From positions 1 to 31,222 of IMG/VR virus record IMGVR_UViG_3300036398_004122: 31,222 nt of DNA, one strand, 5' to 3'. Made by a program: the position numbers and the translations under genes. Below the pieces are notes generated by a model, which was not told the origin of the DNA, ran no database searches, and worked only from the letters and a program-made list of their open reading frames with translations. Shown here piece after piece: positions 5,995-20,528 of the stretch (positions are counted from its first letter, which is position 1; each line of letters opens with the position of its first letter). Source of the stretch: a virus.

Positions 5995-6002
5995 AATAAA
6001 TA
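5995..6002 (+). promoter_or_regulatory. Late promoter-like motif AATAAATA
   Basis: AATAAATA sits 18 bases before the ATG at 6021, matching the T4-type late promoter core at seven of eight bases. Confidence 0.45.
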
Positions 6003-6020: not shown

Positions 6021-7217
6021 ATGAAGACTTTTGCCAGATTTTTTAACGAAGCAGTAGAAACCCAAGCATCTACCGAGGCAAAGAACCGTGGACTTGTTGG
6101 AAATGGTCACGGAGACTGGTACGATAAGCAGGGAAATTTTGTTGCAAAAACGGTTAAGGGTAAGTTAAAGTTTTTTGGACAAGGTGATACAGTATCTCAG
6201 GATGGTATTCCTGGTGAAGAAGCAAAGAAATCAACAAAGTCCCAACAAACAGATTCTTCCCCAGAGCAAGAAGAACAACCACAAGTTAATGGAGTTACAA
6301 TTGTTGTTGGTAGATTTAATCCACCTTCTAAAAACCATGAGGCATTACTTAGAGTTGGTATGTCTCAAGCAAAGAGACGTGGATACGAGTATAGAATTTA
6401 CCCAAGCAGAATTCAAGATTACACAACAAATCCTTTGAATCCATCTACAAAGATTGGATATATGCAGGCTTTGTTTCCTGATTATGCAGAATATATTGTT
6501 GATGATGAAGAAGCAAAAACAATTTTTGATATTCTCGCCTCTGTTTATGGTAATGGATATACTGATGTTGTAGTAGTTGTAGGTCAAGATAGACTTGGGG
6601 AATTCCAGAGTTTGGTTCATAAAGGTGAGGGGCAAAATTATCAGTTTAATAGTATTGAGGTGGTTCCCTCTGGGGTGAAAGACCCAGATAGTGAAATAGA
6701 GACCCCTGGTTCTTCTGCTTTAATGAGAGCAGCAGCAGCAGTAGACGACTTTGATAAATTTATAATGGGACTTCCTTCAACGGCAAACCAAGATGATGCT
6801 GCAGCATTATTTGATGAAGTAAAAAAATCATTGCAAGTTACAGAAGATACTGAGGTTTGGAAAATTGAACCAATGCTGGACTATGATGCTCTAAGATGGA
6901 ATTATAAAAATGGGGGATTATATGAAGTTGATACTATGGTTGAAAATTTAAATACTGGACTTGTTGGAAAAATTATTCGTAGGGGTGCAAATTATTTAAT
7001 TTGTGTTACTGAGTCTGGATTTATGTTTAAGAGTTGGTTAAAGGATGTTAGAGAAGTATTTGAAATAGGAACAACAGAATATTTTCAACATGCACAAGAA
7101 ATGACACCAGGGCAACCAAAGGTATCATTTACTGATATTATAGTTAAAAGAACTATACCACAATTTAAACCAAAAATACTAAATACTAATAGAAAAAGAT
7201 TGTCTACGGTAAAATGA
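6021..7217 (+). CDS. Nucleotidyltransferase-domain protein with T4-like capsid-targeting N-terminus
   Basis: 398 residues. The start MKTFARFFNEA resembles the capsid-targeting sequence of T4 internal head proteins (MKTYQEFIAEA), which the head protease cuts after the Glu. Residues 23-52 carry a Gly-rich stretch, NRGLVGNGHGDWYDKQGNF. Residues 92-250 form a nucleotidyltransferase domain: GRFNPPSKNH at 97-106 matches the GRFxPxHxGH-type nucleotide-binding motif, VGQDR is at 187-191, and SSALMRAA at 231-238 matches the family's SSxxVR motif. Known relatives make NAD, FAD, CoA or CDP compounds. The substrate here is unknown. A Ser-Lys-Asn replaces the usual first His region, so activity needs proof. 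The stop overlaps the next ATG (ATGA). Confidence 0.75.
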   Translation: MKTFARFFNEAVETQASTEAKNRGLVGNGHGDWYDKQGNFVAKTVKGKLKFFGQGDTVSQDGIPGEEAKKSTKSQQTDSSPEQEEQPQVNGVTIVVGRFNPPSKNHEALLRVGMSQAKRRGYEYRIYPSRIQDYTTNPLNPSTKIGYMQALFPDYAEYIVDDEEAKTIFDILASVYGNGYTDVVVVVGQDRLGEFQSLVHKGEGQNYQFNSIEVVPSGVKDPDSEIETPGSSALMRAAAAVDDFDKFIMGLPSTANQDDAAALFDEVKKSLQVTEDTEVWKIEPMLDYDALRWNYKNGGLYEVDTMVENLNTGLVGKIIRRGANYLICVTESGFMFKSWLKDVREVFEIGTTEYFQHAQEMTPGQPKVSFTDIIVKRTIPQFKPKILNTNRKRLSTVK

Positions 7218-9058
7218 CCTATTGGGAAAAGTATATCTCTGAAGAAATGACTGCTGCTCAAAAAAAGAAAGCAGCAGAGCAGGTTATGTCTGATTTAACT
7301 GGAAAAAAGAAAAAAAATAAAAAAGGGAAAGGGAAAGATAAAAAAAGCTCAGAATATACAGAGTATCTAAAAAAACAATTAGAATACAAGAAACAAAAAT
7401 ATGAAGACCAAAAAAGAAGGCAGATTGAAAAATTAAAGGAAAAATCGGATAAGGATACAAAATCAAAAGTCAGGAGTGCTTTATCTTCTGCAAAATACAG
7501 TACCATCAGTTATAAAGACCAAGATCCAACTGCATACAGTAAAGCAATAGGAAATGTTGGAAGTGCAGTTGGAGCACTTGCTAAAGCTGGAGTTGAGGCA
7601 CTTAAATCTAGAAGAGAAAAGAAGAAAGCAGAAAAACGAGCAGCAGAAGCAAAATCAAAACAACCAGAAAAGAAAGAACCAGGAAAACCAGGAAGACCAA
7701 AAGCATCCGGAGGAGATATTCAGCAGGTTTCCGTGAGAGATGTTAGTAATAAAAAGTCAACTAGTGGACTAACTGGAACCCCAGAAAGAAAGAAATTAGT
7801 TCCATCTACAAAGAGACTTCCTGCAGCATCTAAAAGGATTGCACCTTCAGGCGGCACTCCATATCAGGCAGCACCTTCTCCCCAAAGACAAACTGGAATG
7901 TCTTTGGGGCAAAGAGCAAGAAGAAATCCAGCACTAAAATCGGCATTAATTAAAACTAGAATGGAAAACTATTCAGATTGGAGAGAAGAATTCCTTTTCG
8001 AAGTAGATGAAAAGGCAAATAAAGTTGAGAAAGAAAAAATTATTGATGTCATGAAGGGTAAAAATAAAATTGAAATGAATCCTACTGTTAATGAAGACCA
8101 TAAGGAAATCGCAAGTGGAAAAAAGAAAGATGATGAGGGGTATATGGCAAATGTGGAGTTGGACCAAATGGAGAGAGCAATCAAAGCACTCCGTAAAAAA
8201 TTAAAGAAATCTGATACCCAACTCCCTGCTTGGGTGCAGTCAAAAATAACAAGAGCAGCAGATTACGTTGATACTGCTTCTGAGTATCTTCAAAGTGAAG
8301 AAGGACTTTCTGAAGAGAAAGAAGAAAAGAGATACTGCAAACTTTGCAGAAGAGAAGAGGCAAAGGGGGAGTGTTCCTACGGTCCTTCTATGTGGGAAAA
8401 ATATACAATCAGTGAAATGGCACCATTAGTTGCTGCACTTGGTAGAGTTGCTTTAGGTGCAGGTGCAAGAACTGCAGCAACAACTGGAACCAGAGCAGCA
8501 GTTACTTCTGCAGTGAAAGATATTGCAAAAGAAAAACTAAAAGCAGGAATTCAAAATTCACTTAGTCGTGCGGGACAAAAAGTTCAATCTAGTCCTGATT
8601 CAATTAGTCCAGAAGATAGTGGAGCAAGTGTTTATAGAAAGGCATTATCAAATATTGTTGGTGAGGAAGTGGATAAAAAAAAAACTTTAATATTATTGAT
8701 GCTTAAAGCACTTGAGGATAAAAAGAGAAGGAAGAATTCTCAACTAATTAATGGTATTATTGGGGAAGATTGTGAATTAGATGAATCAGTTGATAAAGAT
8801 AAAATGAAGTGCAATAAACCAAAAGCACAAGCACATGGTTCTGGAGAGAGTGGAAAGTCTCATATTGTAAAGGCATGTGAAGGTGGGGAAGAAAAGATTA
8901 TTCGTTTTGGACAACTTGGAGTTAAAGGTTCTCCAAAAAAAGAAGGGGAGTCTGAAGAATATGCAAGTCGTCGCAATAGATTTAAGACTAGACATGCAAA
9001 AAATATTGCAAAGGGAAAAATGAGTGCTGCCTATTGGGCAGACAAAGTTAAATGGTGA
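7214..9058 (+). CDS. Lys-rich modular virion-type protein, 614 aa
   Basis: The N-terminus MTYWEKYISEE has the same shape as a T4 head-protein signal ending in an I-x-E cut site. Residues 15-150 are very basic and probably helical or coiled (KKKKNKKGKGKDKKSS and following). Similar signal-like patches recur inside: MENYSDWREEFLFE near 250 and SMWEKYTISEM near 390. Between them YCKLCRREEAKGEC (near 375) could bind zinc. The last 90 residues form a conserved basic domain ending MSAAYWADKVKW. It overlaps the upstream nucleotidyltransferase gene by 4 bases. No enzyme is recognisable. A DNA-binding protein packaged in the head is my best guess, by analogy with T4 internal proteins. Confidence 0.7.
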   Translation: MTYWEKYISEEMTAAQKKKAAEQVMSDLTGKKKKNKKGKGKDKKSSEYTEYLKKQLEYKKQKYEDQKRRQIEKLKEKSDKDTKSKVRSALSSAKYSTISYKDQDPTAYSKAIGNVGSAVGALAKAGVEALKSRREKKKAEKRAAEAKSKQPEKKEPGKPGRPKASGGDIQQVSVRDVSNKKSTSGLTGTPERKKLVPSTKRLPAASKRIAPSGGTPYQAAPSPQRQTGMSLGQRARRNPALKSALIKTRMENYSDWREEFLFEVDEKANKVEKEKIIDVMKGKNKIEMNPTVNEDHKEIASGKKKDDEGYMANVELDQMERAIKALRKKLKKSDTQLPAWVQSKITRAADYVDTASEYLQSEEGLSEEKEEKRYCKLCRREEAKGECSYGPSMWEKYTISEMAPLVAALGRVALGAGARTAATTGTRAAVTSAVKDIAKEKLKAGIQNSLSRAGQKVQSSPDSISPEDSGASVYRKALSNIVGEEVDKKKTLILLMLKALEDKKRRKNSQLINGIIGEDCELDESVDKDKMKCNKPKAQAHGSGESGKSHIVKACEGGEEKIIRFGQLGVKGSPKKEGESEEYASRRNRFKTRHAKNIAKGKMSAAYWADKVKW

Positions 9059-9074
9059 TTGAGGGGTACTTTCG

Positions 9075-9082
9075 GATAAATA
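9075..9082 (+). promoter_or_regulatory. Late promoter-like motif GATAAATA
   Basis: GATAAATA lies 27 bases before the ATG at 9110 and matches the T4 late promoter core at seven of eight bases. Confidence 0.5.
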
Positions 9083-9109
9083 ATTTTGGTCTAACTTACG
9101 GAGGTCATT

Positions 9110-9283
9110 ATGGACGCAATTGTCGCAATCGTAAAACCAATTCTTATTAGAATTGCAACTCACCCATCAGTTAAAAATCTTGTTATTGAACTTCTTGAAA
9201 AATATGTAAAAACCACAGACAATAGCATTGATAATGTTATTCTTGCTACTGTTAAGGAACTTCTATTTAAACCAGAAGTTTGA
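9110..9283 (+). CDS. Small conserved helical protein, 57 aa
   Basis: ATG at 9110 with a good ribosome site TTACGGAGG at 9096-9104 and its own late promoter motif. The product MDAIVAIVKPILIRIATHPS continues as an amphipathic, probably helical protein, with hydrophobic residues about every third or fourth position. It is not hydrophobic enough to be a clear membrane segment. Strong translation signals and two hairpins after it suggest an abundant late product transcribed on its own. The function is unknown; a minor virion component is possible. Confidence 0.7.
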   Translation: MDAIVAIVKPILIRIATHPSVKNLVIELLEKYVKTTDNSIDNVILATVKELLFKPEV

Positions 9284-9287
9284 TTTT

Positions 9288-9304
9288 CCAAGTTTATGAC
9301 TTGG
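9288..9304 (+). terminator. Short hairpin after the 57-aa gene
   Basis: CCAAGT (9288-9293) pairs with ACTTGG (9299-9304) around a 5-base loop, followed by a partly T-rich stretch. It may protect the 3' end or assist the stronger terminator at 9327. Confidence 0.4.
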
Positions 9305-9326
9305 ATCTAATTTTGTTAAAATTTTT

Positions 9327-9354
9327 GGGGTAAAGTGTTGCTTTACCCCCTTTT
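9327..9354 (+). terminator. Factor-independent terminator
   Basis: GGGGTAAAG (9327-9335) pairs perfectly with CTTTACCCC (9341-9349) around a 5-base loop and is followed by CTTTT. The T tract runs straight into a TATAAATA late promoter. Confidence 0.8.
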
Positions 9355-9361
9355 ATAAATA
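9354..9361 (+). promoter_or_regulatory. Late promoter TATAAATA
   Basis: An exact match to the T4 late promoter core, 34 bases before the ATG at 9396 and sharing its first T with the terminator tract. Confidence 0.65.
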
Positions 9362-9395
9362 AGTTTAGGAAAAATTTTTTACGGAAAAGAAAAAA

Positions 9396-10202
9396 ATGGC
9401 ACTCTGGGGTAAAAAAGACGACATTTATTCTGCTGGAACTATTACAGTTGATTATGCAAATAAAACTGTAACTGGTTCTGGAACCACTTTCACCGCATTG
9501 AGTGTCGGTGATGTGATTTCTATCGGAGCTGGTACTACTTTTGGTGAGGCAGTTGTATCTGGTATTACCTCAGATACAGTTATTTCTATTGCATCTACTC
9601 AGTATCTAAGTGGTGCTGCTATTTCTGCTGTGGAGTGGACCGCATCCCAAAAACCAAAGTATACTCTTAAAGATTCTAATTATTCTGCAACTGAAATTCT
9701 TGGAGTCGATGAAAATGAGATTGTTTCATCTACACTAGAGATTTCACATACAGGATGGGTTGGTGTTCATACTTATGTTGATAATCACGGAAATCTGAGA
9801 AGAAAGACTGAAGTTTTAGTTGCTATGTCAGGAATCACCACTGGTGTAGCAAGTACAACTGGAGTTGGTGGTGATGCTGCCGATGACACCCTTCTCCCAG
9901 ATACTGTCATTTCAATTGTAACTCAACCATCTAGTGTTGGTGTTGCTACCACTGCACTACCACAGACAGTTAACTTTAGTGTAGTAGCAGCAACTTCTCC
10001 AGTATCTCAGGCTGTTACTTATCAGTGGCAGAGAAGCACAAATGGGGGTACTTCATACACCAATGTTGGTGGAGCAACTACCTCTGCAGTTAGTGTTGCG
10101 GTAACTAATACTACGTTTGATGGATATCTATATCGTGTTGTTCTTAATTCCACAGGTGCTGATCAAGTTGTATCTGGATCTGCAACCCTTACTGTATCGT
10201 GA
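9396..10202 (+). CDS. Virion structural protein with C-terminal Ig-like domain
   Basis: 268 residues, rich in Thr, Ser, Val and Gly as in beta-structured virion proteins. The first ~165 residues (starting MALWGKKDDIY) include strands such as KTVTGSGTTF and SQKPKYTLKDSNY. Residues about 178-268 look like a bacterial Ig-like domain: ITQPSS at its start, VTYQWQRSTNGG near 207 with the core Trp, DGYLYRVVLNS, and the end SATLTVS. Ig-like domains on phage heads and tails (T4 Hoc is the model) bind weakly to glycans and surfaces. Exact promoter, terminator upstream and a purine-rich leader (ACGGAAAAG) suggest strong late expression. Head decoration or fibre attachment are both possible. Confidence 0.8.
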   Translation: MALWGKKDDIYSAGTITVDYANKTVTGSGTTFTALSVGDVISIGAGTTFGEAVVSGITSDTVISIASTQYLSGAAISAVEWTASQKPKYTLKDSNYSATEILGVDENEIVSSTLEISHTGWVGVHTYVDNHGNLRRKTEVLVAMSGITTGVASTTGVGGDAADDTLLPDTVISIVTQPSSVGVATTALPQTVNFSVVAATSPVSQAVTYQWQRSTNGGTSYTNVGGATTSAVSVAVTNTTFDGYLYRVVLNSTGADQVVSGSATLTVS

Positions 10203-10210
10203 TTTGATGT

Positions 10211-10582
10211 ATGAGATTTGATGAGTTGAATGAAGATAACTATCTTCTTTTTGCAATTAAACATTATGAGAATCCTCAGTCCGTGACTAAGGATGACTTT
10301 TATGATGACCTAAAAAGAATTAGGTGGATTAAAAAGTTGTTGAAAAAATATAAAAATGAAGGTGAACTGAAAACTCATTTATTAATAAACCACTTTATTA
10401 TTCTTTATAATGTTTTTGGTGATGCAGCAACACCAATGCTGTTTTATAAATTGGAAAAGGATTATTGGAGTGTTCTGAAAACTTTTATAGTTTATCTTCA
10501 AAGGTTTCCGGAATATCCAATTACCAAAATTCATGAAATACCACTTGATGATGACTGTTTAAAAATACTCAATTCAATCTAA
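10211..10582 (+). CDS. Conserved phage protein, 123 aa, function unknown
   Basis: A soluble, probably all-helical protein. The front half is highly charged (DDFYDDLKRIRWIKKLLKKY). The second half is hydrophobic and aromatic (LLINHFIILYNVFGDAATPMLFYK, about residues 56-80) but interrupted by polar residues, so I do not call a membrane segment. Proteins of this kind are widespread in T4-like cyanophages. No catalytic residues stand out. It starts 8 bases after the Ig-like gene and its TAA overlaps the next ATG, so it is in the same transcript. Confidence 0.75.
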   Translation: MRFDELNEDNYLLFAIKHYENPQSVTKDDFYDDLKRIRWIKKLLKKYKNEGELKTHLLINHFIILYNVFGDAATPMLFYKLEKDYWSVLKTFIVYLQRFPEYPITKIHEIPLDDDCLKILNSI

Positions 10583-10782
10583 TGGACGACAGAATTTTAG
10601 ATAAAATTATTTCAATGGTAAGAAATAATTTAAATGAAGAGGGTGCAATGGCATTGCCAACTAATAATGTTGGTTCTGGTAATATTGCTGGAACTCCAGA
10701 GGCAGATCCAGGAAATCCACCAGTAAAAAAAAGAAAAAAATACATTTACCAAAAAAACTCTAGAAAACTTTGGAAAATATAA
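10582..10782 (+). CDS. Small protein with basic C-terminus, 66 aa
   Basis: ATG overlapping the upstream stop (TAATG). The 66-residue protein has a short helical front (DDRILDKIISMVRNNLNEEG), a Gly/Pro/Asn-rich middle that is probably disordered, and a strongly basic end, KKRKKYIYQKNSRKLWKI. The basic tail could bind nucleic acid or an acidic partner. Many cyanomyoviruses carry a similar short gene here. The function is unknown. Confidence 0.65.
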   Translation: MDDRILDKIISMVRNNLNEEGAMALPTNNVGSGNIAGTPEADPGNPPVKKRKKYIYQKNSRKLWKI

Positions 10783-10787
10783 ATGCC

Positions 10788-11207
10788 ATGTTCTCACAAG
10801 AATCTAAACTAGCGGTTCTTGAATCTAAACTCAACATTTATGAAGAACTGTCCAGAGAAATGCTTTCAAAATTGGAAGCAGCTGTGGAAAAAATATCAGA
10901 AGGAAATAACCGCATTGCTATGATTCTTACAAAGCATGACGAAAGGATTGAACAGGCGATAAAGACTGATGACCTTATTATAAAGATGATTGATGAGGTT
11001 AAGGAGTCAAATTCAAAAGAACATGCCCTTGTCATTAAAAGATTAGAGACAGTAGAAAGTAATATTGCAGATTTATCTAAGTTTAAGTGGCAGGTAGCAG
11101 CTATTTCAGGTGCTGCCGTTTTGATTATCGGTTTGGTAGTCCCCTTTATTGACAACGTGCTCCCAGGACCCTATAATGGAGGTTCCCAGACCACCCAAAC
11201 TAGATAA
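10788..11207 (+). CDS. Coiled-coil protein with C-terminal membrane segment (XhlA-like layout)
   Basis: 139 residues from the ATG at 10788. An in-frame TTG at 10770 would add six residues and overlap the previous gene; I prefer the ATG. Residues 1-100 show heptad-like spacing of Leu, Ile and Met (ESKLAVLESKLNIYEELSREM and following), predicting a long coiled coil. Residues about 102-120 (WQVAAISGAAVLIIGLVVPF) form one membrane helix, followed by a short polar tail. This layout matches XhlA-type haemolysin and holin-associated proteins, so a role in lysis or membrane anchoring is possible, by analogy only. A lysozyme gene lies 10 kb away, not next door. Confidence 0.7.
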   Translation: MFSQESKLAVLESKLNIYEELSREMLSKLEAAVEKISEGNNRIAMILTKHDERIEQAIKTDDLIIKMIDEVKESNSKEHALVIKRLETVESNIADLSKFKWQVAAISGAAVLIIGLVVPFIDNVLPGPYNGGSQTTQTR

Positions 11208-12208
11208 TGAGTTTTATTGATTCCAAATATATCGGGTTGGTTTCTTCCCGACTGCATAAGTTCGCTAGAAAAAAAGAAGGTCTATATAATTTCCGTTGCC
11301 CTTATTGCGGAGATAGTCAGAGGACTAAAAATAAGGCACGGGGATACCTGTATAAGTTAAAGAACGACCACAACTTTAAATGCCATAATTGTGGGGTTTC
11401 TAGGACTTTTACTAACTTCCTGAAGGATATGGATGCTGTGTTGTATGACCAGTATGTGATGGAGAGATATAAGAATGGTCTAACAGGAAAGGGAAGTCAA
11501 ACAAAGACACCAGAGTTTAAGTTTGAAAAACCTAACTTTTCAAAAAAGTCTTTTGACCTGCCCACCATAGAAGAACTAAATAAAGAACACTTGGCAAGAC
11601 AATATCTAGAGAACAGAAAAATTCCAAAGGAATATTTTCGTGAATTGTATTTTTGTCAGAACTTCAAAGAGTGGACTAACACTCAGAAGCACACATTCGA
11701 TAATTTAGACAACGACGAACCAAGAATCATCATTCCTCTCATCAATCAAGGAAAAATCTTTGGGTTTCAAGGTCGCAGTCTGAATAAGAATTCAAAGGTC
11801 AAATATATTACAATCATCCTAGACGACAGCCATCCAAAAATATATGGTTTAGATAAAGCAGATTTTAATAAGACTGTATATGTCGTTGAGGGACCAATCG
11901 ATAGTATGTTCTTAGATAATGCAATTGCTATGGTTGGAGCAGATTTAGATTACATGTTTTTCGTTACTAATTTTGAATCAGACTTTGTGATGGTCTATGA
12001 CAATGAAAAACGAAATAAACAAATTATTCAGAGAATGGAAAAGGCAATTGATTCAAAATTTCCTATTGTAATTTGGCCAAATGACTTGAAAGAAAAGGAC
12101 ATCAATGATATGATACTTGAAGGCATTGATGTCAACAAAATTGTAAAAGAAAATACCTTTATGGGGTTAGAAGCAAAAGCAAAACTTATTGGTTGGAAAC
12201 GAGTATGA
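11207..12208 (+). CDS. 61: DNA primase gp61
   Basis: 333 residues, against 342 in T4 gp61. The zinc-binding domain is visible as C31-P-Y-C34 and C59-H-N-C62. The TOPRIM domain starts near 223 with VYVVEGPIDS, where E228 and the later acidic residues (VMVYDNE, D265) bind the catalytic metals. It makes the RNA primers for lagging-strand synthesis and acts in a complex with the gp41 helicase at 2132-3505. The ATG overlaps the stop of the membrane protein upstream by one base, and its own TGA overlaps the nrdA start (ATGA), so primase and nrdA are coupled. Confidence 0.92.
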   Translation: MSFIDSKYIGLVSSRLHKFARKKEGLYNFRCPYCGDSQRTKNKARGYLYKLKNDHNFKCHNCGVSRTFTNFLKDMDAVLYDQYVMERYKNGLTGKGSQTKTPEFKFEKPNFSKKSFDLPTIEELNKEHLARQYLENRKIPKEYFRELYFCQNFKEWTNTQKHTFDNLDNDEPRIIIPLINQGKIFGFQGRSLNKNSKVKYITIILDDSHPKIYGLDKADFNKTVYVVEGPIDSMFLDNAIAMVGADLDYMFFVTNFESDFVMVYDNEKRNKQIIQRMEKAIDSKFPIVIWPNDLKEKDINDMILEGIDVNKIVKENTFMGLEAKAKLIGWKRV

Positions 12209-14502
12209 GCAACGGTACAAATGTAGTTAAAAGGAATGGTTCCGTAGAGAGTCTTGACCTGAATAAACTTCATCTAATGGTTGACGAGGCTTGCAAGGAT
12301 TTGTCTGGTGTATCAGCAAGTCAGGTTGAGATGCAGTCTGGAATTCAATTTTATGATGGAATTACAACTCAGGAAATTCAAGAAATTTTAATTCGTTCTG
12401 CATCAGACTTGATTGATTTGGATAACCCAAATTATCAATTTGTTGCAGCAAGACTTCTGCTATTTTCTGTGAGAAAGTCTTTGTATGGAAAAATTCAAGA
12501 CCATCCAACTTTCTTGGACCACATTAAAAAGTGTGTAAATGCGGGTGTTTATGACAAAGAAATTCTCACAAATTATTCTGAAGAAGAGATTAATAAACTT
12601 GGTTCGTATATTAATCATAACCGTGACTACCTATTCACTTATGCAGGTCTACGTCAGGTCGTTGATAAGTACCTCGTGCAAGATAGAAGCAATGGAAGTG
12701 TATATGAAACCCCACAGTTTATGTACATGATGATTGCTGCGACAATCTTCTCTCAATACTCAAAAGAAATTCGTCTTTCATATGTAAAGAGGTACTATGA
12801 CGCAATCTCAAAGCACAAAATCAACATTCCCACACCTATCATGGCAGGAGTGCGAACTCCACTTCGACAATTTGCTAGCTGTGTTCTTGTTGATTCTGAT
12901 GACACCCTCGATAGCATCTTTAGTTCTGATATGGCTATCGGCAGATATGTTGCACAAAGGGCGGGCATCGGTATCAACGCAGGTCGCATCAGGGGGATCA
13001 ATGCTAAAATCAGAGGTGGAGAAGTTCAGCACACAGGTGTTGTCCCTTTCCTCAAAAAGTTTGAGAGCACTGTCCGATGCTGCACTCAGAATGGCATCCG
13101 AGGTGGATCAGCAACTGTCCACTTTCCAATCTGGCACCAAGAAATAGAAGATATTCTAGTTCTTAAGAATAACAAAGGAACTGAAGATAATCGAGTCCGT
13201 AAACTTGATTATTCTATTCAAATTTCTAAATTGTTCTATGAAAGGTTTATTAAAGATGAGGAGATTACTCTCTTCAGTCCCCATGACGTACCTGGACTTT
13301 CTGATTCTTTCGGACTCCCTGAGTTTGACGATCTCTATGTTTCATATGAAAAGAATCCGTCCATTAAAAAGAAGACTATTAAGGCGCAAGAACTTATTCT
13401 TGACCTCCTTAAGGAACGTGCGGAAACGGGTCGTATCTACATTATGAATATCGACCATTGCAATTCTCACTCGTCATTTAAAGATAAAGTTTGGATGAGT
13501 AATCTTTGCCAAGAGATTACACTTCCTACCAAACCATTGCAGCACATTGATGACCCTAATGGGGAGATTGCACTTTGCATTCTTTCTGCGGTTAATGTAG
13601 GAAAAGTCAAATCTGATGAAGAATTTGAAGAACTTTGTGATCTTTCTGTGCGTGGTCTAGAAGAATTGATAGACTACCAAGAATATCCAGTTGTTGCTGC
13701 AGAAAAATCAACCAAAGCACGTCGTTCTCTTGGTATTGGGTTTATTGGTCTTGCACACTATTTGGCAAAACTTGGATGCAACTATGATTCACAAGAAGCA
13801 TGGGATGCGGTACACGGACTTTCTGAAGCATTCCAGTATTATCTTCTGAAATCTTCTAATCAAATTGCAAAAGAAAAAGGAAAGTGCGAATACTTTGGTC
13901 GCACTAAGTATGCTGATGGAATTCTTCCAATCGATACTTATAAAAAAGACGTAGATGAAATTACTTCAATTAAATTGGAACATGATTGGGAAACTCTTAG
14001 AGCATCTATCTTGGAATACGGTCTCAGGCACTCAACATTGTCCGCACAGATGCCATCGGAGAGCAGTTCCGTTGTGTCAAACGCAACTAATGGAATCGAA
14101 CCACCTCGTGGATTCTTGTCCATTAAGAAATCAAAGAAAGGACCTCTTAAGCAAATTGTTCCCCAGTATCATACACTCAAAAACAATTATACGCTTTTGT
14201 GGGATATGCCTAATAATACTGGGTATATTAATGTGGTTGCTGTGATGCAAAAGTTTTTTGATCAAGCAATTTCTGGAAATTGGTCTTATAATCCAGAAAA
14301 TTATCCAGATAATGAAGTTCCAGTCACTGTTATGGCAAATGATTTCCTAAAAACATATAAGTATGGATGGAAAACTTCTTATTACCAAAACACATATGAT
14401 ATTAAGACAGATGAGGTTAAAGATGAAAAGTCAGATATTTCATCTTTGATTAATGATATACTCAATTCTGGTGAAGAAGATTGCGAATCATGCAAAATTT
14501 AA
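12205..14502 (+). CDS. nrdA: Ribonucleoside-diphosphate reductase, large subunit (class Ia)
   Basis: 765 residues from the ATG at 12205, which overlaps the primase stop; a TTG at 12193 is less likely. It reduces ribonucleotides to deoxyribonucleotides with NrdB. All catalytic residues are in place: C226 (E. coli C225), the N-x-C-x-E block MSNLCQEI with C435 and E437 (E. coli C439, E441), and C458 in ALCILSAVN (E. coli C462). The C-terminal cysteine pair C760-E-S-C763 passes electrons from thioredoxin or glutaredoxin. The N-terminal ~90 residues are a short ATP-cone-like region; whether it still senses dATP is unclear. An oxygenase gene separates it from nrdB. Confidence 0.96.
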   Translation: MSNGTNVVKRNGSVESLDLNKLHLMVDEACKDLSGVSASQVEMQSGIQFYDGITTQEIQEILIRSASDLIDLDNPNYQFVAARLLLFSVRKSLYGKIQDHPTFLDHIKKCVNAGVYDKEILTNYSEEEINKLGSYINHNRDYLFTYAGLRQVVDKYLVQDRSNGSVYETPQFMYMMIAATIFSQYSKEIRLSYVKRYYDAISKHKINIPTPIMAGVRTPLRQFASCVLVDSDDTLDSIFSSDMAIGRYVAQRAGIGINAGRIRGINAKIRGGEVQHTGVVPFLKKFESTVRCCTQNGIRGGSATVHFPIWHQEIEDILVLKNNKGTEDNRVRKLDYSIQISKLFYERFIKDEEITLFSPHDVPGLSDSFGLPEFDDLYVSYEKNPSIKKKTIKAQELILDLLKERAETGRIYIMNIDHCNSHSSFKDKVWMSNLCQEITLPTKPLQHIDDPNGEIALCILSAVNVGKVKSDEEFEELCDLSVRGLEELIDYQEYPVVAAEKSTKARRSLGIGFIGLAHYLAKLGCNYDSQEAWDAVHGLSEAFQYYLLKSSNQIAKEKGKCEYFGRTKYADGILPIDTYKKDVDEITSIKLEHDWETLRASILEYGLRHSTLSAQMPSESSSVVSNATNGIEPPRGFLSIKKSKKGPLKQIVPQYHTLKNNYTLLWDMPNNTGYINVVAVMQKFFDQAISGNWSYNPENYPDNEVPVTVMANDFLKTYKYGWKTSYYQNTYDIKTDEVKDEKSDISSLINDILNSGEEDCESCKI

Positions 14503-15182
14503 AATTAAAAGGAGAAGGTAAATTCATCCCATTATTTCCTACTCCCCTTGGGATATTTAAAGATGATGATTATCCAAATAAAAAAGATGATATTTTAAAA
14601 ATGTGTCTTGATGAAAGGGATAATGATACTAGTGGTAGACTGATATCAAATCGGGGAGGTGGATGGCAAAGTAAGTCTAAATGGTTTTTTGAAGAAAAAA
14701 ATAAATCATTTTATGAATATCTCCATAAAATGATAGAATCTTTATTTTATGAATCATTTGATCACTCTGGAGAACTTACTTTTTCTGTACCAAATTGCTG
14801 GATTAATATTAACCCTTCAGGTGCTTATAATCTTTCTCATACCCACCCTGGTTGTGATTATGCTGGAGTTTTATATGTAAATCTTCCAGAAAATGATGAT
14901 ATTGATGATGATGCTCCTATTGTTTTTGATGGTCCAAATTCTCATATATTTGGATTAACATTTAATATGTACTCTGAGAATTATGTTAATGCATATGGAT
15001 TATGTGCTGAAATTGAAGTATATCCATCCGAAGGTACATTATTGATATTTCATTCTTCTCTTAGGCATTTAGTTGAAGAAAATAAATCTAAAGAGGAAAG
15101 AATTAGTATTGCTTTCAATATTATTATAGAAAATTATGGTAGATTTGGGGACAACAACAAAAGAGGCAAAATAAAATGTTAG
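14490..15182 (+). CDS. Putative 2-oxoglutarate/Fe(II) oxygenase (second of two)
   Basis: 230 residues from the ATG at 14490, inside the last codons of nrdA in another frame; a TTG at 14481 is an alternative. The pattern matches the phage oxygenase family with an N-x-x-H-x-H start: SHTHPGCDYAGVLYVN (H117, H119), then the distal H193 in SSLRHLVEE and R204-I-S206 in ERISIAFN, the RxS that binds 2-oxoglutarate. EGTLLIFHSS precedes the distal His as expected. The substrate is unknown; protein, nucleic acid or a small metabolite are all possible. It splits nrdA from nrdB, is AT-richer than either, and overlaps nrdB by 7 bases. Confidence 0.75.
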   Translation: MQNLKLKGEGKFIPLFPTPLGIFKDDDYPNKKDDILKMCLDERDNDTSGRLISNRGGGWQSKSKWFFEEKNKSFYEYLHKMIESLFYESFDHSGELTFSVPNCWININPSGAYNLSHTHPGCDYAGVLYVNLPENDDIDDDAPIVFDGPNSHIFGLTFNMYSENYVNAYGLCAEIEVYPSEGTLLIFHSSLRHLVEENKSKEERISIAFNIIIENYGRFGDNNKRGKIKC

Positions 15183-16318
15183 ATGGAATGACCGTTTTTA
15201 ATACAAAAGAGGTTGAAACAAAGAAACAGCCCATGTTCTTTGGACAACCTTTGGGAGTTCAAAGGTATGATTCCTATAAATATCCAATTTTTGAAAAATT
15301 AACTACACAACAACTTGGTTATTTTTGGAGACCAGAAGAAATTTCATTACAAAAAGATAGAGCAGATTATCAAACATTACGTCCTGAACAGAAGCATATT
15401 TTTACTTCAAATCTGAAGTATCAAATTCTTTTGGATTCTGTTCAGGGTCGTGGTCCCGGTATGGCATTTATTCCATACTGCTCACTCCCTGAATTGGAAG
15501 CATGTATGACCGTATGGGAATTCATGGAAATGATTCACTCTCGTTCATACACCTATATTATCAAAAATGTTTATTCAGATCCTTCTGAAGTTTTTGATTC
15601 AATATTATCTAATGATAATATTTTAGAAAGAGCATCATCTGTGACTGGTGCTTATGATGATTTTATTAACTCTGCACAACAGTATGGATCATCAAATGCT
15701 TGGATGTTTGCACAAGAAAATGCAGGATCTTCAAGAGAAGATCGTATTGAATTAAAAAGAAAACTTTATCGTGCTGTTGCCAATGTCAATATTCTCGAAG
15801 GTATCAGGTTCTATGTCTCGTTCGCTTGCTCGTTTGCGTTTGGTGAACTCAAACTTATGGAAGGATCCGCTAAAATTATCTCTCTCATCGCACGAGACGA
15901 AAACCAACACCTTGTTATTACTCAAAACATCCTCAATAAATGGCGTGAAGGAGATGATCCAGAAATGCAACAAATTTGTAAGGAAGAAGAGGAATGGGTA
16001 AGGTCTGCTTTTGATAATTGTGTTAATGAGGAAAAGAGATGGGCACAATATCTCTTTAAAGATGGTTCAATGATTGGTCTTAATGATAAACTTCTTCATC
16101 AGTATGTTGAGTGGATTGCAAATCGTAGAATGAAAGCAATTGGAATTAAACCTTTATACGATATTTCTGCAAAGAATAATCCTCTTCCTTGGACCGAACA
16201 TTGGATTTCCTCCAAAGGTCTTCAGGTTGCTCCCCAAGAAACAGAAGTTGAAAGTTATGTAGTTGGTGGAATCAAACAAGACTTGAAAACGGATACATTT
16301 GCTGGATTCCAACTTTGA
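15176..16318 (+). CDS. nrdB: Ribonucleoside-diphosphate reductase, small subunit (class Ia)
   Basis: 380 residues from the ATG at 15176, which has AGAGG 9 bases upstream; an ATG at 15188 (MTVFN) is the other candidate. It holds the di-iron centre and tyrosyl radical. All ligands are present: D87, E118, H121, E208, E242 and H245 (E. coli D84, E115, H118, E204, E238, H241). The radical Tyr is Y125 in HSRSYTYI. The C-terminus DTFAGFQL is the tail that docks into NrdA. The radical needs oxygen, which suits an oxygen-producing host. A strong terminator follows at 16325. Confidence 0.96.
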   Translation: MLDGMTVFNTKEVETKKQPMFFGQPLGVQRYDSYKYPIFEKLTTQQLGYFWRPEEISLQKDRADYQTLRPEQKHIFTSNLKYQILLDSVQGRGPGMAFIPYCSLPELEACMTVWEFMEMIHSRSYTYIIKNVYSDPSEVFDSILSNDNILERASSVTGAYDDFINSAQQYGSSNAWMFAQENAGSSREDRIELKRKLYRAVANVNILEGIRFYVSFACSFAFGELKLMEGSAKIISLIARDENQHLVITQNILNKWREGDDPEMQQICKEEEEWVRSAFDNCVNEEKRWAQYLFKDGSMIGLNDKLLHQYVEWIANRRMKAIGIKPLYDISAKNNPLPWTEHWISSKGLQVAPQETEVESYVVGGIKQDLKTDTFAGFQL

Positions 16319-16324
16319 TTCTTC

Positions 16325-16348
16325 GGGGGCATTTGCCCCCTTTTTTTT
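16325..16348 (+). terminator. Factor-independent terminator after nrdB
   Basis: GGGGGC (16325-16330), loop ATTT, GCCCCC (16335-16340), then eight T. It ends the primase-nrdA-oxygenase-nrdB operon. Its last T begins a TATAAATA. Confidence 0.9.
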
Positions 16349-16355
16349 ATAAATA
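16348..16355 (+). promoter_or_regulatory. Late promoter TATAAATA
   Basis: An exact T4 late core, 22 bases before the ATG at 16378 and fused to the terminator T tract, the same arrangement as at 9327-9361. Confidence 0.65.
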
Positions 16356-16377
16356 ACTAAAAAACTAGAGTATAAAA

Positions 16378-17811
16378 ATGTCCAGTATTAACGATATTAC
16401 AGACTTGTATAAGCAAATTAAAACTTCTGAAACTTCAGGAACTCTTCTTTCTGAGGCAAGTTTTGAGATTGGTCCTGGGCACAAGGCAGCACAGAAAACT
16501 CAGAAAATTTATAATAAAGCAAAGGAAGGTGCTGGTACTGAAAAGGAATGGTTAAAGAAAACTGGACCACAACTTCCTTTAGCAAAAGCAAAACCTGGAA
16601 TGCAAGTTGCTGGATATGAACTGGAAGGAGAATTAGTTTCCGAAAGAGAAATGACAAAGGCAGAAATGAAAAAAGAGAAAAAACTCAAGAATAAGTATGA
16701 TACTTCAGCAATGAAGAAAAGTATGATTGATCAATACGGAAAAGAAAAAGGAACTCAAATTTATTTTGCCACCATCCGTAAGCAAGCAATGGCAGATTCA
16801 TTTGAGGTAGAAGGTGAGCAACTCGATGAACTTGCTCCTCTTGCCGCTGGAGCACTTGCTGCTGGTGCAGCAGCTGCTCCATATTTACTTAAAAAATTTG
16901 CAAAACCAGCAGTGGATAAAGCAATGGATAAAGCAAGAAAAACATCTCCGATTGGTGGGGATAGATACTCAAGTCAATTAAAACAATTAAATCAATCATT
17001 TGACTATGATGATGCTTATGATTATATTATTGAAATGCTAGTTGCTGCAGATTACGCAGAGAGCTATGAAGCAGCAGAAGTAATGTTTGAGCACATTAGT
17101 GATGAGTTTACCTCAGTTATTCTTGAGGAGTATATTGAAGAGAAGGCAAGAGGAACTAGAAAAAAGACAACAGTTCATGCATATGATGTTGACGAAACTC
17201 TCTTCGGACACGGTAAGAAAGGTAAACCAAACGTTCAGGTTCACGTTAAGGATGCATCTGGCAAGAGAGTCAAGAGTTTAAGCAACCAGGAGTTCAATAC
17301 TCATAAGTTAGATAAGGGACATTCTTATGACTTTAGTGAGTTCCAAAGTGCTAAAAAGTTCTCCCAAACTGCTAGTCCAAACAAAAAAGTAATTAAGGAT
17401 ATCAAGAGAAAGCAAGCAAGAGGACAAAACGTTCATCTCATTACTGCTCGTTCTAAGTTTGATAAACCAAGTGAATTCCAAGGACACCTCAAGAAGCACG
17501 GTGTTGATGTAGATAAGAAGAACATTCACTACACTGGTGGAATGAAGGGTGGTGATATTGGTAAGAAAAAAGTTGATGTTGCAAATGCAGTAGCAAAGCA
17601 AAGTGGTGCTAAGAAAATCCATATGTATGATGATGCTGCCAAAGTTCATAAGGCATTTGAAAAAGAGAAGAAAGAAGCACCAACAACAAAGAAAATTAAA
17701 ACTCATATGGTTGCACCAGACAAGAAAGGTGAATCCAGAGTTCGTTCATATCAAGCAACTAAGAATGAAGAGATGAGTGCTTATGAATATTGGAAGCAGT
17801 TCATTGATTGA
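16378..17811 (+). CDS. Modular virion-type protein with C-terminal HAD phosphatase domain
   Basis: 477 residues in modules. Residues 90-137 hold MTKAEMKKEKKLKNKYD and the conserved QYGKEKGTQIYFATIRKQA. An Ala-rich segment follows (152-170). Residues 209-251 are a helical module, YDDAYDYIIEM to SVILEE, related to one in the gene at 18336. Residues 265-430 form a HAD-type phosphatase: D270-V-D-E-T274 (nucleophile and acid), T356-A-R358 (motif II), Lys near 397-399, and D418-D419 in IHMYDD (motif IV). Polynucleotide 3'-phosphatases and nucleotidases share this layout. The C-terminus MSAYEYWKQFID resembles the signal-like patches of the neighbouring late proteins. A packaged end-repair enzyme is possible but unproven. 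Confidence 0.75.
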   Translation: MSSINDITDLYKQIKTSETSGTLLSEASFEIGPGHKAAQKTQKIYNKAKEGAGTEKEWLKKTGPQLPLAKAKPGMQVAGYELEGELVSEREMTKAEMKKEKKLKNKYDTSAMKKSMIDQYGKEKGTQIYFATIRKQAMADSFEVEGEQLDELAPLAAGALAAGAAAAPYLLKKFAKPAVDKAMDKARKTSPIGGDRYSSQLKQLNQSFDYDDAYDYIIEMLVAADYAESYEAAEVMFEHISDEFTSVILEEYIEEKARGTRKKTTVHAYDVDETLFGHGKKGKPNVQVHVKDASGKRVKSLSNQEFNTHKLDKGHSYDFSEFQSAKKFSQTASPNKKVIKDIKRKQARGQNVHLITARSKFDKPSEFQGHLKKHGVDVDKKNIHYTGGMKGGDIGKKKVDVANAVAKQSGAKKIHMYDDAAKVHKAFEKEKKEAPTTKKIKTHMVAPDKKGESRVRSYQATKNEEMSAYEYWKQFID

Positions 17812-17813
17812 TA

Positions 17814-18287
17814 ATGAGGTTTAATTTTTCCTTTGGAAAGAAAAGAAGAGGAGTTATAGAATGGGTAAAGATTTCTATACTCCTCGAAGGTATTATTGAG
17901 TTTTTATCAAACAAATTTGGCATTGATAAGAAGAAACTTTGGGATATTGTAGATGAAATCCAAAGAGAACTTTTAAAAAGAGGTTGGATTGATGATACTG
18001 TAAATGATTATGTCATCAATACTCCAGAACTATTAGACCAAAGAATTGAACGTGATGTTGATAAAGCAATAGAAGAATATAAAAAACTGGAAGAACCAGA
18101 ACCAGTCAATATGAAGAATGAAGTGATATTAAAAGAGATTGAAAAACCAAAGTATACAGAGACCCAAAAGAAGATTGTGAAAGATGCTGTATATTATGAA
18201 AAAGAACCAGATGGTAGTAAAGCACAAGAACTTTTAGGTGGAGAGATGGGAATAAAAGCAAGTTGGAATCTTGATGAAGATAAATAA
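17814..18287 (+). CDS. Conserved protein, 157 aa, function unknown
   Basis: The ATG at 17814 starts 3 bases after the upstream stop; a TTG at 17808 would overlap it. No clear ribosome site, so translation may depend on coupling. The N-terminus is basic (RFNFSFGKKRR). A helical section follows (WVKISILLEGIIEFLSNKFG), and then an acidic linker with EEYKKLEEPEPVN and a charged end. The hydrophobic stretch near residues 20-37 is too polar for a confident membrane segment. It lies between two modular late proteins and before a late promoter, so it is probably a late product. Confidence 0.65.
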   Translation: MRFNFSFGKKRRGVIEWVKISILLEGIIEFLSNKFGIDKKKLWDIVDEIQRELLKRGWIDDTVNDYVINTPELLDQRIERDVDKAIEEYKKLEEPEPVNMKNEVILKEIEKPKYTETQKKIVKDAVYYEKEPDGSKAQELLGGEMGIKASWNLDEDK

Positions 18288-18289
18288 AC

Positions 18290-18297
18290 GATAAATA
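18290..18297 (+). promoter_or_regulatory. Late promoter-like motif GATAAATA
   Basis: GATAAATA starts 3 bases after the upstream stop and 38 bases before the ATG at 18336. Confidence 0.5.
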
Positions 18298-18335
18298 TTA
18301 TTAAGAAAAGTACTTTTCAATACCCCCCAAAGAAG

Positions 18336-20528
18336 ATGAAGAAAGAAGACTTGGATGCTTTAGCAGGTTTATATGAAGGTGTTTATTCTCCAAATTCTGG
18401 TGAATACCTGCAAGAAGAATTGGAGTTATTGATAGAACGTGGAGCACCAACAGATCCTAAAGCTAGGGCAGCATATGATGCTCAAGTTGCCAAAAACAGA
18501 GCTGCTTTGGGTAATACTCTTCTTTATGGAAATGCAGCAGGAAGAAAGCCATCTACACTTTCCACACCAACAAATGTAAGAGGTGGTGGAACAAGAAAAC
18601 CTGCAGCACCTGCACCAGCAGCAAAACCACCCGCAGCAAAACCAGGAGCACTTACTCCTGCAGTAAAACCAGCAGCAACATCTCCTGCAGCAAAACCAGC
18701 AGCAACATCTCCTGCAGCAAAACCAGCAGCATCAGCACCTGGTTCTGCAAAGGTTGTTCCATCTTCGGCAAAACCAGCAGCATCAGCAAAACCAGCAGGG
18801 TCAGCGATGGACCAGTGGGCTGCCGCCAATCCAAAACTCGCAGCGGCAAAGGCAGAAAGAGATAGAACAAGAGGAACTAGTGCAACTACAAATCCTCTCA
18901 TGAAGGATTTCAAAGATAAACTTCCTGCACCAAAAGCACCTTCACCATCTACTTCGTCAACTGCATTTGCAAAGACATCTCCTTCATTGGGTTCTTCATC
19001 TTCTCCAGTTAAGTCTGCTGGAACTGCAGCAGCTGCTAAACCAACTACAAATCAAACTTCAACAGCATTTTCTAGCCCATCTTTAGTTAAACCAGCAGCA
19101 CCTGCACCTGCAGCAAAACCAGCTGCAACAATGCAAAAGAGACCAGCAGGACCTGGTACTGGTGCAATGACTAGAGGTGGAGCATCAGGTGATGTTGGTC
19201 CAAATGCTAGAACAATTCGCAGTTCCTATGAGTGGGGTTCAAAAGCAACTCTCAAGGATGTTGCAAGTCTCTATAGTTCAATCTATGAGGGCAAAAAGAA
19301 GGACCAAGATCAAGATGGTGATAATGATTTCGCAGATGTAAGAATTGCAAGAATGATTGCATCTGGAATGTCAAAGGCACAAGCAATCGCAGCAGTTAAG
19401 AACAAAGAATATAATGAAGAGTTTGAATCTTGGGTAGATTCTCTTGTAGAAGAGGGTTATGACCTTTCTGATTATACTATGGACGAAATGTTTGACATCT
19501 ATCTTGATGAAGCAGAAGGTTCATATGGTTCTACACCAAAGGCATATAGTGCAGCATCAAAAACCAAGATGACTGCAAAGAGAAAGCCTTTCCTCAAGAA
19601 GATGTTGAGCAGAACTAATCCTGCTAACAGAACTTCTCCTTATGGTTCTCCAAGAAGGGGAATGAGTGATGAAGATAGGGAAAGAGCAAGAGCAGGTTCT
19701 AAGCACGGTGTCGGAACTCGTCAAGACCACGATTATCCTTCAGAGGGTCCTGGTGGTGTAACCAAGAGTGCTAAGAAACTCCGTAAGCAAAAAGCAATGG
19801 GTGAGTTTGGTGAGGCATACGAGATTGATGAAGCAGCAAAGAGAACACCAAAGAAAACCAGAGGTGCTAAAGACCCAGTAGCATATATGAAGGGTCGTTC
19901 TGATGCTGGCAAGAGAATTTCTGGAGATGAGGATACTGGTCCAAGATATTATACTCTAGGTCGTGCTCGTGGTGCTGAAGCAGATGCTCCAACACAACCA
20001 GGACAAAAACCTGTTAGAACACCTAAACTAGCAGGTTGGGAAAAGGATGATATTCAATATCGTAAAGCAAATTTAAAAGCAGGAAAAACTCATAAAGTTG
20101 GTGGAGAAAAAGGTCTTCCTGAAGAGTATGAAATTTATGAGATTGTAGCATCATACCTCCTTGAGAACAACTTTGCTGCAACTGTTAATGATGCAAATGT
20201 GATCATTGAAAATATGAGTGAGGTATGGTTAGACCAAATTCTTTCTGAAGCACCAGGAGAATGGTTTGGTGGTTTGAGGGACAAAGCTCGTGCAAGTAGA
20301 GCAGCACAGATGCAATCTTCACAACCAACACCAAAACCAGGTCCAACCGTTTCTTCACCATTTGCTAAACCAGCAAGTAGAAATGATAGTGGTAGTTTAA
20401 CTACTTATGGTGCTGGTGGTGGTGCGGCAGCAGAAAGAAGAGGTCAAACCCGTTCTCAGGTCATGCAGCAAGGTGCTAAGAACCTTGAGAATAAGAATAG
20501 AAATCCTGGACCAAATTTTGGTCGTTGA
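18336..20528 (+). CDS. Long modular virion-type protein, Pro/Ala-rich, 730 aa
   Basis: No enzyme domain is visible. The start LDALAGLYEGVYSP ends in a Tyr-Glu-Gly patch repeated inside as LKDVASLYSSIYEGK (near 305-319). Residues about 85-270 are low-complexity Pro, Ala, Lys and Ser, probably disordered. Near 322-335 DQDQDGDNDFAD looks like a calcium-binding loop, followed by RIARMIASGMSKAQAIAAV. Residues about 355-385 (SWVDSLVEEGYDLSDYTMD) and 595-640 (IYEIVASYLLENNFA to WLDQILSEAPG) are helical modules ending in an x-x-E that could be cut by the head protease. The second is related to residues 209-251 of the HAD protein. Probable virion or head-core protein. Confidence 0.7.
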   Translation: MKKEDLDALAGLYEGVYSPNSGEYLQEELELLIERGAPTDPKARAAYDAQVAKNRAALGNTLLYGNAAGRKPSTLSTPTNVRGGGTRKPAAPAPAAKPPAAKPGALTPAVKPAATSPAAKPAATSPAAKPAASAPGSAKVVPSSAKPAASAKPAGSAMDQWAAANPKLAAAKAERDRTRGTSATTNPLMKDFKDKLPAPKAPSPSTSSTAFAKTSPSLGSSSSPVKSAGTAAAAKPTTNQTSTAFSSPSLVKPAAPAPAAKPAATMQKRPAGPGTGAMTRGGASGDVGPNARTIRSSYEWGSKATLKDVASLYSSIYEGKKKDQDQDGDNDFADVRIARMIASGMSKAQAIAAVKNKEYNEEFESWVDSLVEEGYDLSDYTMDEMFDIYLDEAEGSYGSTPKAYSAASKTKMTAKRKPFLKKMLSRTNPANRTSPYGSPRRGMSDEDRERARAGSKHGVGTRQDHDYPSEGPGGVTKSAKKLRKQKAMGEFGEAYEIDEAAKRTPKKTRGAKDPVAYMKGRSDAGKRISGDEDTGPRYYTLGRARGAEADAPTQPGQKPVRTPKLAGWEKDDIQYRKANLKAGKTHKVGGEKGLPEEYEIYEIVASYLLENNFAATVNDANVIIENMSEVWLDQILSEAPGEWFGGLRDKARASRAAQMQSSQPTPKPGPTVSSPFAKPASRNDSGSLTTYGAGGGAAAERRGQTRSQVMQQGAKNLENKNRNPGPNFGR
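18669..18722 (+). repeat. 27-bp direct tandem repeat, two full copies
   Basis: Two identical 27-base units (18669-18695 and 18696-18722), with the first nine bases of a third at 18723. They encode PAATSPAAK twice within the Pro/Ala-rich part of the 730-residue protein. Identity at base level suggests recent duplication by slippage. Confidence 0.85.

Follow-up and report, generated by a model that had tools for sequence, protein, structure and literature searches.

Candidate head-packaged enzymes with a T4-type capsid-targeting sequence in a T4-like cyanophage

Results

A T4-type tag at the start of two cyanophage proteins

We analysed a 31,222-base virus record (IMG/VR record IMGVR_UViG_3300036398_004122, referred to below as the window), a fragment of a T4-like cyanophage, and found that two of its open reading frames (ORFs, named here by their first base), 6021 and 7214, begin with a ten-residue tag in the register of the T4 capsid-targeting sequence. 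They belong to a group of ORFs (4990, 6021, 7214, 9396, 16378 and 18336) between mazG and the tail lysozyme gene. The tag, its conservation in relatives of 6021, late promoters in the group and the presence of relatives in the virions of other phages point to late-made internal head proteins that are loaded by means of the tag and released with the DNA at infection, a reading that we consider likely. The first-pass annotation of this DNA had proposed such a head-packaged set; the tag, late promoters and virion relatives together support it strongly for 6021, well for 7214 and 18336 and moderately for 16378. Judged from sequence, packaging in the head is very likely for 6021, quite likely for 7214, likely for 18336 and reasonably likely for 16378.

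Internal proteins of T4 enter the prohead via a 10-residue N-terminal capsid-targeting sequence, in which, for IPIII, residues 4 and 7 serve targeting and residues 8 and 10 processing; the head protease gp21 cleaves after L/I-x-E (PMC9026906). The starts of 6021 and 7214 are in the exact T4 register, with an aromatic residue at position 4, hydrophobic residues at 7 and 8 and Glu at 10, so the resemblance pointed out in the first-pass annotation held, as did the N-termini and coordinates that it had quoted. The residue after Glu10 is Ala in 6021 (M-K-T-F-A-R-F-F-N-E-A) and Glu in 7214 (M-T-Y-W-E-K-Y-I-S-E-E). These are the only two fits among the 29 window ORFs taken as genes. When all 56 open frames of at least 80 codons were scanned there was one further fit, 26043, which we rejected as surely a chance match, being an out-of-frame stretch within gnd. 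A control scan of T4 in all frames found IPII, IPIII and gene 61.1, and missed IPI and Alt because their tags differ. Gene 61.1 (NC_000866, 18966-19130; L485) encodes 54 residues with the tag-like start M-K-T-F-K-E-F-I-K-E-D, and is not among the internal proteins named in the T4 review (PMC9026906).

Chance and conservation

To gauge chance, we searched the 501 annotated proteins of two cyanophages, S-CREM2 (219) and S-SCSM1 (282), for the residue classes required at positions 4, 7, 8 and 10. The register was matched by 6 of the 501, against a mean of 0.28 over 17,160 placements of the columns within positions 2-14, and the 4 placements that reached 6 matches all had the same four columns. 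Five of the six matches are virion proteins, compared with 99/501 overall (p 0.0014). For S-CREM2 the virion set is the published mass spectrometry (MS) list of 52 proteins (PMC10665884); all four of its register matches are on that list, namely the SAM hydrolase gp6, the APH-like kinase gp14, gp136 and the cytidylyltransferase gp154. The Cas9-annotated gp12, outside the six counted, is listed as well and carries the tag at residues 16-25. For S-SCSM1 the set is the 47 genes called virion proteins in the record's annotation (45 proteins were found by MS, the NMNAT being named among them; PMC9602691), and includes its tagged NMNAT, gp281. A looser local scan for the tag was discarded, as it also matched wrong frames and antisense stretches.

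Conservation was assessed in relatives of 6021 fetched by peptide patterns that excluded the tag (best 80 of 119). The pattern [MV][KR]x[FY]xxF[FILV]xE fitted 79 of these 80 loci and 23 of 24 distinct 14-residue starts; the sole exception, L084, fits if a GTG nine bases upstream is taken as the start. It is on these loci that the conservation claim rests and not on our alignment A1 (34 rows, 21 of them from a tag-pattern scan; L368, L385 and L392 omitted from 37 representatives), where invariance of the tag is circular because every row had to fit the tag pattern.

The tag is evidence for packaging, at the level of sequence, that is independent of virion proteomics. This matters for the alternative that these are ordinary auxiliary metabolic genes used in the infected cell, with an irrelevant N-terminal resemblance and carry-over as the source of the virion detections. 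In its favour, the genes have replication and nucleotide genes as neighbours, the tag is missing from some relatives, and the authors of the MS studies themselves raise carry-over (PMC9602691, PMC10665884). Against this stands the enrichment of the tag in virion proteins, and its placement: a DNA pattern for M-K-x-F-x-x-F-h-x-E-A occurred in at least 120 stretches of IMG/VR, and among the matches listed (119 loci) 123 of 124 lay at ORF starts. A start was counted when its frame was at least 60 codons long, or was truncated by the end of the contig, and no more than 40 codons were open upstream of it. As a control, a pattern scrambled so as to keep the specified bases yielded 24 matches across the whole collection, of which 6 lay at such starts.

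Late promoters

The starts of 6021, 9396, 16378, 18336 and 22279 have the T4-type late promoter core ATAAATA in the 60 bases upstream. None of the other 24 starts does, and these include replication and reductase genes, 4990 and 7214 (the last overlaps 6021). Over the whole window the core is not in excess, with 10 occurrences against 12.5 by chance, and it is informative only through its place ahead of these genes. Among the loci fetched, it preceded 59 of 105 distinct tagged NMNAT starts (8% in shuffles) and lay in 8/8 distinct upstream regions each of 16378-like and 18336-like genes, which are close relatives; of the remaining tagged starts, it preceded 25 of 76. It preceded 0 of 109 controls (nrdA, 21; nrdB, 42; uvsX, 27; primase, 19), a contrast that also speaks against the auxiliary metabolic explanation, which we regard as very improbable. 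A protein made late would more plausibly be destined for packaging, and so for the next host, than for work in the cell where it is made.

ORF 6021 resembles NMN adenylyltransferases

The first-pass annotation had assigned a nucleotidyltransferase to 6021 and a HAD phosphatase to 16378, and both domains were recovered by family match (phrog_395 and phrog_415) and by fold. The model of 6021 (34 sequences) has a mean pLDDT of 76, with most of the core at 86 to 97, and its best Foldseek matches are NadD/NMNAT structures (best E 5e-5). Besides the nucleotidyltransferase fold it has the G-R-F-N-P-P...H and S-x-x-x-R motifs of NadD/NMNAT, and in the alignment G97, R98, N100, P101, P102 and H106 (G-R-x-N-P-P...H) are invariant in 34/34 sequences. 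The window copy does not match Pfam PF01467, while a relative in S-CREM1 does. Identity is 39% to S-SCSM1 gp281, whose gene occupies the same genome place, and 31% to S-CREM2 gp154.

After the tag, residues 13-58 are predicted to fold into a small domain (pLDDT about 87-89) that we call the DGHG module. A profile of the module without the tag (33 sequences) found, among the 501 proteins, only the gp281 NMNAT, the S-CREM2 kinase gp14 (twice) and gp12 (once), all of them virion proteins; the cytidylyltransferase of S-CREM2 itself lacks the module.

ORF 16378 and tag-like pieces inside chains

The motifs D-x-D-E-T, T-A-R, Lys and D-D of HAD phosphatases are invariant in 12/12 aligned relatives of 16378 (alignment A2, L150 of 13 representatives omitted), and the model (12 sequences, pLDDT 72) has a HAD fold. 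The closest structure is AphA (Foldseek E 1.5e-4), and T4 Pnkp phosphatase ranks 14 (E 0.01, TM 0.65 by target). Upstream of this domain lies a helical module. A profile from 16378-type copies alone, rebuilt because a first version had contained the 18336 copy, finds the copy in 18336 at full length with a weak E of 0.03; against two cyanophage proteomes the helical-module profile gave no clear relative.

Inner tag-like patches had also been described in 7214, 16378 and 18336. All were located, but the piece at the end of 16378 closes on Asp and lacks x-x-Glu; in T4, Asp at position 10 still permits targeting, though not processing (PMC9026906). Among 51 distinct tails behind the HAD domain, 13 contain a whole inner tag, x-E included, 31 stop at a tag-like piece as in the window and 10 have none by pattern. 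One relative, L095, carries M-T-A-Y-E-Y-W-K-Q-F-I-S-E-A inside the chain, with more protein after it. Because Met is common at the head of the inner tag, it may be a former start codon, which suggests that inner tags arose by fusion of tagged genes. Elsewhere, L407 has a phrog_415 HAD protein with a plain N-terminal tag (M-K-N-F-S-E-F-L-S-E-A); BLASTP gave no match between it and 16378, and profile comparison gave a probability of 41% (E 2.8e-4), both proteins matching phrog_415. Packaging of 16378 is supported by its late promoter, by the tagged HAD protein of L407 and by the tag pieces that relatives carry behind their HAD domain. Tag-like ends at the C-terminus occur in 7 of the 501 proteins, 5 of them virion proteins, and not all are convincing.

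A small ORF that overlaps the end of 16378 (17808-18287) is related to S-CREM2 gp171 and gp172, which come after genes annotated as lysozyme.

ORFs 7214 and 18336

ORFs 7214 and 18336 are low-complexity mosaics. Relatives of 6021, of 18336 and of a short piece of 7214 are recorded among virion proteins. For 7214 this is a 27-residue Cys-containing match to the virion-annotated gp029 of S-SCSM1 (E 3.6e-4); for 18336 it is gp089 of the same phage (33.6% identity over residues 517-639, E 1.6e-9). The longer inner tag-like piece of 7214 (M-E-N-Y-S-D-W-R-E-E-F-L-F-E) recurs in 20 of the 26 distinct 7214-type proteins that carry the tag, the window copy counted. The pattern Y-S-x-W-R was rejected as a virion marker: its 3 matches in 501 are all virion proteins, but shuffles average 1.3 and reach 6.

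A module of 18336 is shared with S-CREM1_219, whose gene adjoins the NMNAT gene in S-CREM1, and with S-SZBM1_194, which bears a SAM-lyase domain. The latter (L483:14533-16656, 707 residues) is a possible packaged anti-restriction enzyme by its sequence; it is not on the S-SZBM1 MS list.

The low complexity of 7214 and 18336, their several cut-like sites and the I-L-x-E ends of the helical modules would suit another role, that of prohead core parts like T4 gp67 and gp68, cut up and mostly lost or DNA-condensing, and not injected effectors. We consider a core or scaffold role of this kind, and no other, unlikely: 6021 and 16378 retain enzyme folds and active-site residues, and elsewhere the tag is found on proteins with SAM lyase, GNAT, glucosaminidase or lytic transglycosylase domains.

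Breadth of tagged families

Of the 124 pattern-tagged proteins among the matches listed, the nucleotidyltransferase motif is present in 46; another 74 that exceed 40 residues fell into 39 clusters after removal of the tag. One cluster of 8, fragments included, has the DGHG module in common, and some of its members may be cut nucleotidyltransferases. Pfam, run on 15 tagged proteins, placed 5 above its curated cut-offs (DUF6267, glucosaminidase, GNAT, lytic transglycosylase DPBB and DUF6321), and S-CREM2 gp6 is a SAM lyase by family search. Two tagged proteins resemble ADP-ribosyltransferases by eye, and one weakly matches phrog_5470, RNA 2'-phosphotransferase. The presence of the tag on many unrelated proteins in related viruses suggests an injected enzyme toolkit alongside the DNA.

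In phages whose cytidyltransferase is without the standard tag, proteins that bear a K-W-D-G-A-P motif and look DUF6267-like by eye are encoded near or ahead of the gene for that enzyme (L491:1047-2279, L490:2218-3411 and L489:2275-3495). Proteins of this type can carry the tag themselves, as in L366 (DUF6267 by Pfam) and L403 (by eye).

The capsid cut site

Capsid-protein loci of cyanophage-like contigs resemble T4 in the type of their cut region. Of 80 such loci 75 were readable, and L-x-E was present in the cut region of all 75 (61 by pattern, 14 by eye; one of the six search peptides spanned the cut site, which favours L-x-E). F-L-T-E was frequent, T4 gp23 having G-S-F-L-T-E-A, and a protease is annotated in S-SCSM1, S-CREM2 and S-SZBM1. 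From this likeness to gp23 the cyanophage protease probably shares the cleavage specificity of T4 gp21.

Other features of the window

The window also encodes uvsX, the gp41 helicase, mazG, primase, nrdA, nrdB, talC and gnd, among others; names given here without a family search were taken from translations. With curated cut-offs Pfam matched none of 4990, 6021, 7214, 16378 and 18336, and PADLOC found no defence family among six window proteins; PDB sequence searches with two profiles gave no match. ORF 9396 matches the head protein family phrog_613 (E 3e-21). ORF 4990 (4990-5991) stands at the genome place of the virion-annotated gp282 of S-SCSM1, and has no similarity to gp282 or to the rest of 510 comparison proteins and no Pfam or PHROG family match. 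The ORF at 20650-21075 falls in phrog_447, labelled NAD synthetase, yet is a SegE-type GIY-YIG endonuclease by Pfam; the label is likely an error, to judge from the sequence.

Table 1. Features of the window and what identifies them
Feature	Coordinates	Strand	Basis or remark
Capsid-targeting sequence, ORF 6021 N-terminus (M-K-T-F-A-R-F-F-N-E)	6021..6050	+	Predicted head-protease cut after Glu10
Capsid-targeting sequence, ORF 7214 N-terminus (M-T-Y-W-E-K-Y-I-S-E)	7214..7243	+	Predicted cut after Glu10
Late promoter core ATAAATA, T4 type	5996..6002	+	About 25 bases before ORF 6021
ORF 6021, nucleotidyltransferase (NMNAT/NadD-like)	6021..7217	+	phrog_395 cytidyltransferase, E 9e-73
DGHG module (our name), about 45 residues after the tag	6057..6194	+	Common to two other S-CREM2 virion proteins
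Catalytic core of 6021	~6291-6833	+	Model and fold search
Small beta domain of 6021	~6936-7055	+	Model and fold search
ORF 7214, Lys-rich low-complexity mosaic protein	7214..9058	+	C-terminal small domain ~8792-9055 (phrog_7595)
Inner tag-like piece in 7214 (M-E-N-Y-S-D-W-R-E-E-F-L-F-E)	7961..8002	+	Sequence
Inner near-copy of the tag of 7214 (M-W-E-K-Y-T-I-S-E)	8390..8416	+	Sequence
Late promoter core	9355..9361	+	Upstream of ORF 9396
Late promoter core	16349..16355	+	About 29 bases before ORF 16378
ORF 16378, HAD phosphatase protein	16378..17811	+	HAD domain ~17170-17676; phrog_415 E 1.4e-4, fold search
Helical module in 16378, ending I-L-E-E	17017..17130	+	Possibly related to the 18336 module
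C-terminal tag-like end of 16378 (M-S-A-Y-E-Y-W-K-Q-F-I-D)	17773..17808	+	Sequence; Asp instead of x-x-Glu
Two late promoter cores	18280..18297	+	Before ORF 18336
ORF 18336, low-complexity mosaic protein	18336..20528	+	Relative of S-SCSM1 virion-annotated gp089
Helical module in 18336, ending M-S-E-V-W-L-D-Q-I-L-S-E before Ala	20136..20249	+	Sequence and profile

Discussion

Several observations weigh against tag-directed packaging. The window contains no protease, scaffold or capsid gene, and neither 16378 nor 18336 is tagged at the N-terminus. The virion evidence for 6021, 7214 and 18336 consists of relatives in the MS lists or annotations of other phages, 16378 has no relative on any MS list, and the authors of both virion studies state that detection of enzymes may be carry-over (PMC9602691, PMC10665884). 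The tagged gp030 of S-SCSM1 has no virion record, although the proteins on either side of it do. When the tag pattern was freed of position, the 501 proteins gave 6 matches, 4 of them virion proteins, where shuffles gave a mean of 1.8 and a maximum of 5. Among 20 distinct readable loci, the ORF after the NMNAT gene carries the tag in 10 (9 fit the pattern, and the tenth, L025, only if Val is permitted at position 7); it is absent in L024, L026 and eight more distant loci, so that the 7214-type tag is kept only among nearer relatives. Lastly, while the enzyme is tagged in the isolates S-SCSM1, S-CREM2 and S-CREM1, and in S-WAM1 with a tag one residue shorter, the cytidyltransferases of P-HM2, S-CAM3 and HTVC008M lack it and the start in S-CAM9 is atypical. 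These eight isolates are not a fair sample, because the last five were chosen for matches that did not begin at residue 1; by these sequences, the tag of the 6021-type enzyme is gained or lost among phages.

We nevertheless favour packaging by means of the tag, and propose the following course. During assembly the N-terminal tags of 6021 and 7214 would bind the prohead core, and a gp21-type protease would cut both proteins after Glu10, a step that we hold to be likely. The freed proteins would remain in the head with the DNA and depart with it at the next infection; their ejection into the host is reasonably probable. There 6021, as an NMN/NaMN adenylyltransferase-like enzyme, would make NAD at DNA entry, perhaps offsetting NAD-consuming defences or demands, a role to which we give an even chance. 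ORF 16378 would be a HAD phosphatase of the nucleotidase or 3'-phosphatase kind, and 18336 and most of 7214 may be disordered carriers or companions of the DNA.

In kind, this would be the internal-protein system of T4. As in IPI, IPII, IPIII and Alt, 6021 and 7214 carry a ten-residue N-terminal tag in the same register, and as with Alt an enzyme would be carried in the head. It differs from the T4 internal proteins in having other enzymes, tag-like pieces inside chains, a second module after the tag and many more families. The first-pass annotation had called the system undescribed. That does not hold for NMNAT-like proteins in cyanophage virions or for the idea that they enter the host, both already published (PMC9602691, PMC10665884): 6021 is a relative of the virion-associated NMNATs of S-SCSM1, S-SZBM1 and S-CREM2, virions of S-SZBM1 contain the cytidylyltransferase together with a protein of adjacent locus number, and a virion NMNAT is also cited for S-CBWM1 in the cyanophage virion papers. 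For the S-SCSM1 and S-CREM2 enzymes, the parts of those papers available to us give no targeting signal and leave packaging open (PMC9602691, PMC10665884). Phage-injected polyvalent proteins, known here by description, are likewise multidomain, with enzyme domains delivered with the DNA (cited in PMC7824862), and the corresponding portion of that text mentions no targeting sequence. What does stand is that cyanophages carry the tag, that it extends across unrelated families and that it has inner copies, none of which we found in print among the matches listed from the open-access literature. We regard the breadth of the tag and its inner use as the most interesting part.

We tentatively suggest that the tag is a general address label of T4-like bacterioplankton phages for a large, fast-changing set of head enzymes, and that the inner tags of fused genes let the head protease split one chain into several injected proteins. 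Little is known of the cargo that cyanophages deliver at entry, and the authors of the virion proteomes could not separate enzymes that are packaged from those that are carried over. With a tag as a predictor of packaging, candidates can be named for testing in cultured phages (in S-CREM2, the SAM hydrolase, the kinase, the Cas9-annotated protein and the NMNAT), and scanning of N-termini yields candidate anti-defence enzymes. It would also show that the capsid-targeting code of T4 has been kept in distant T4-like phages.

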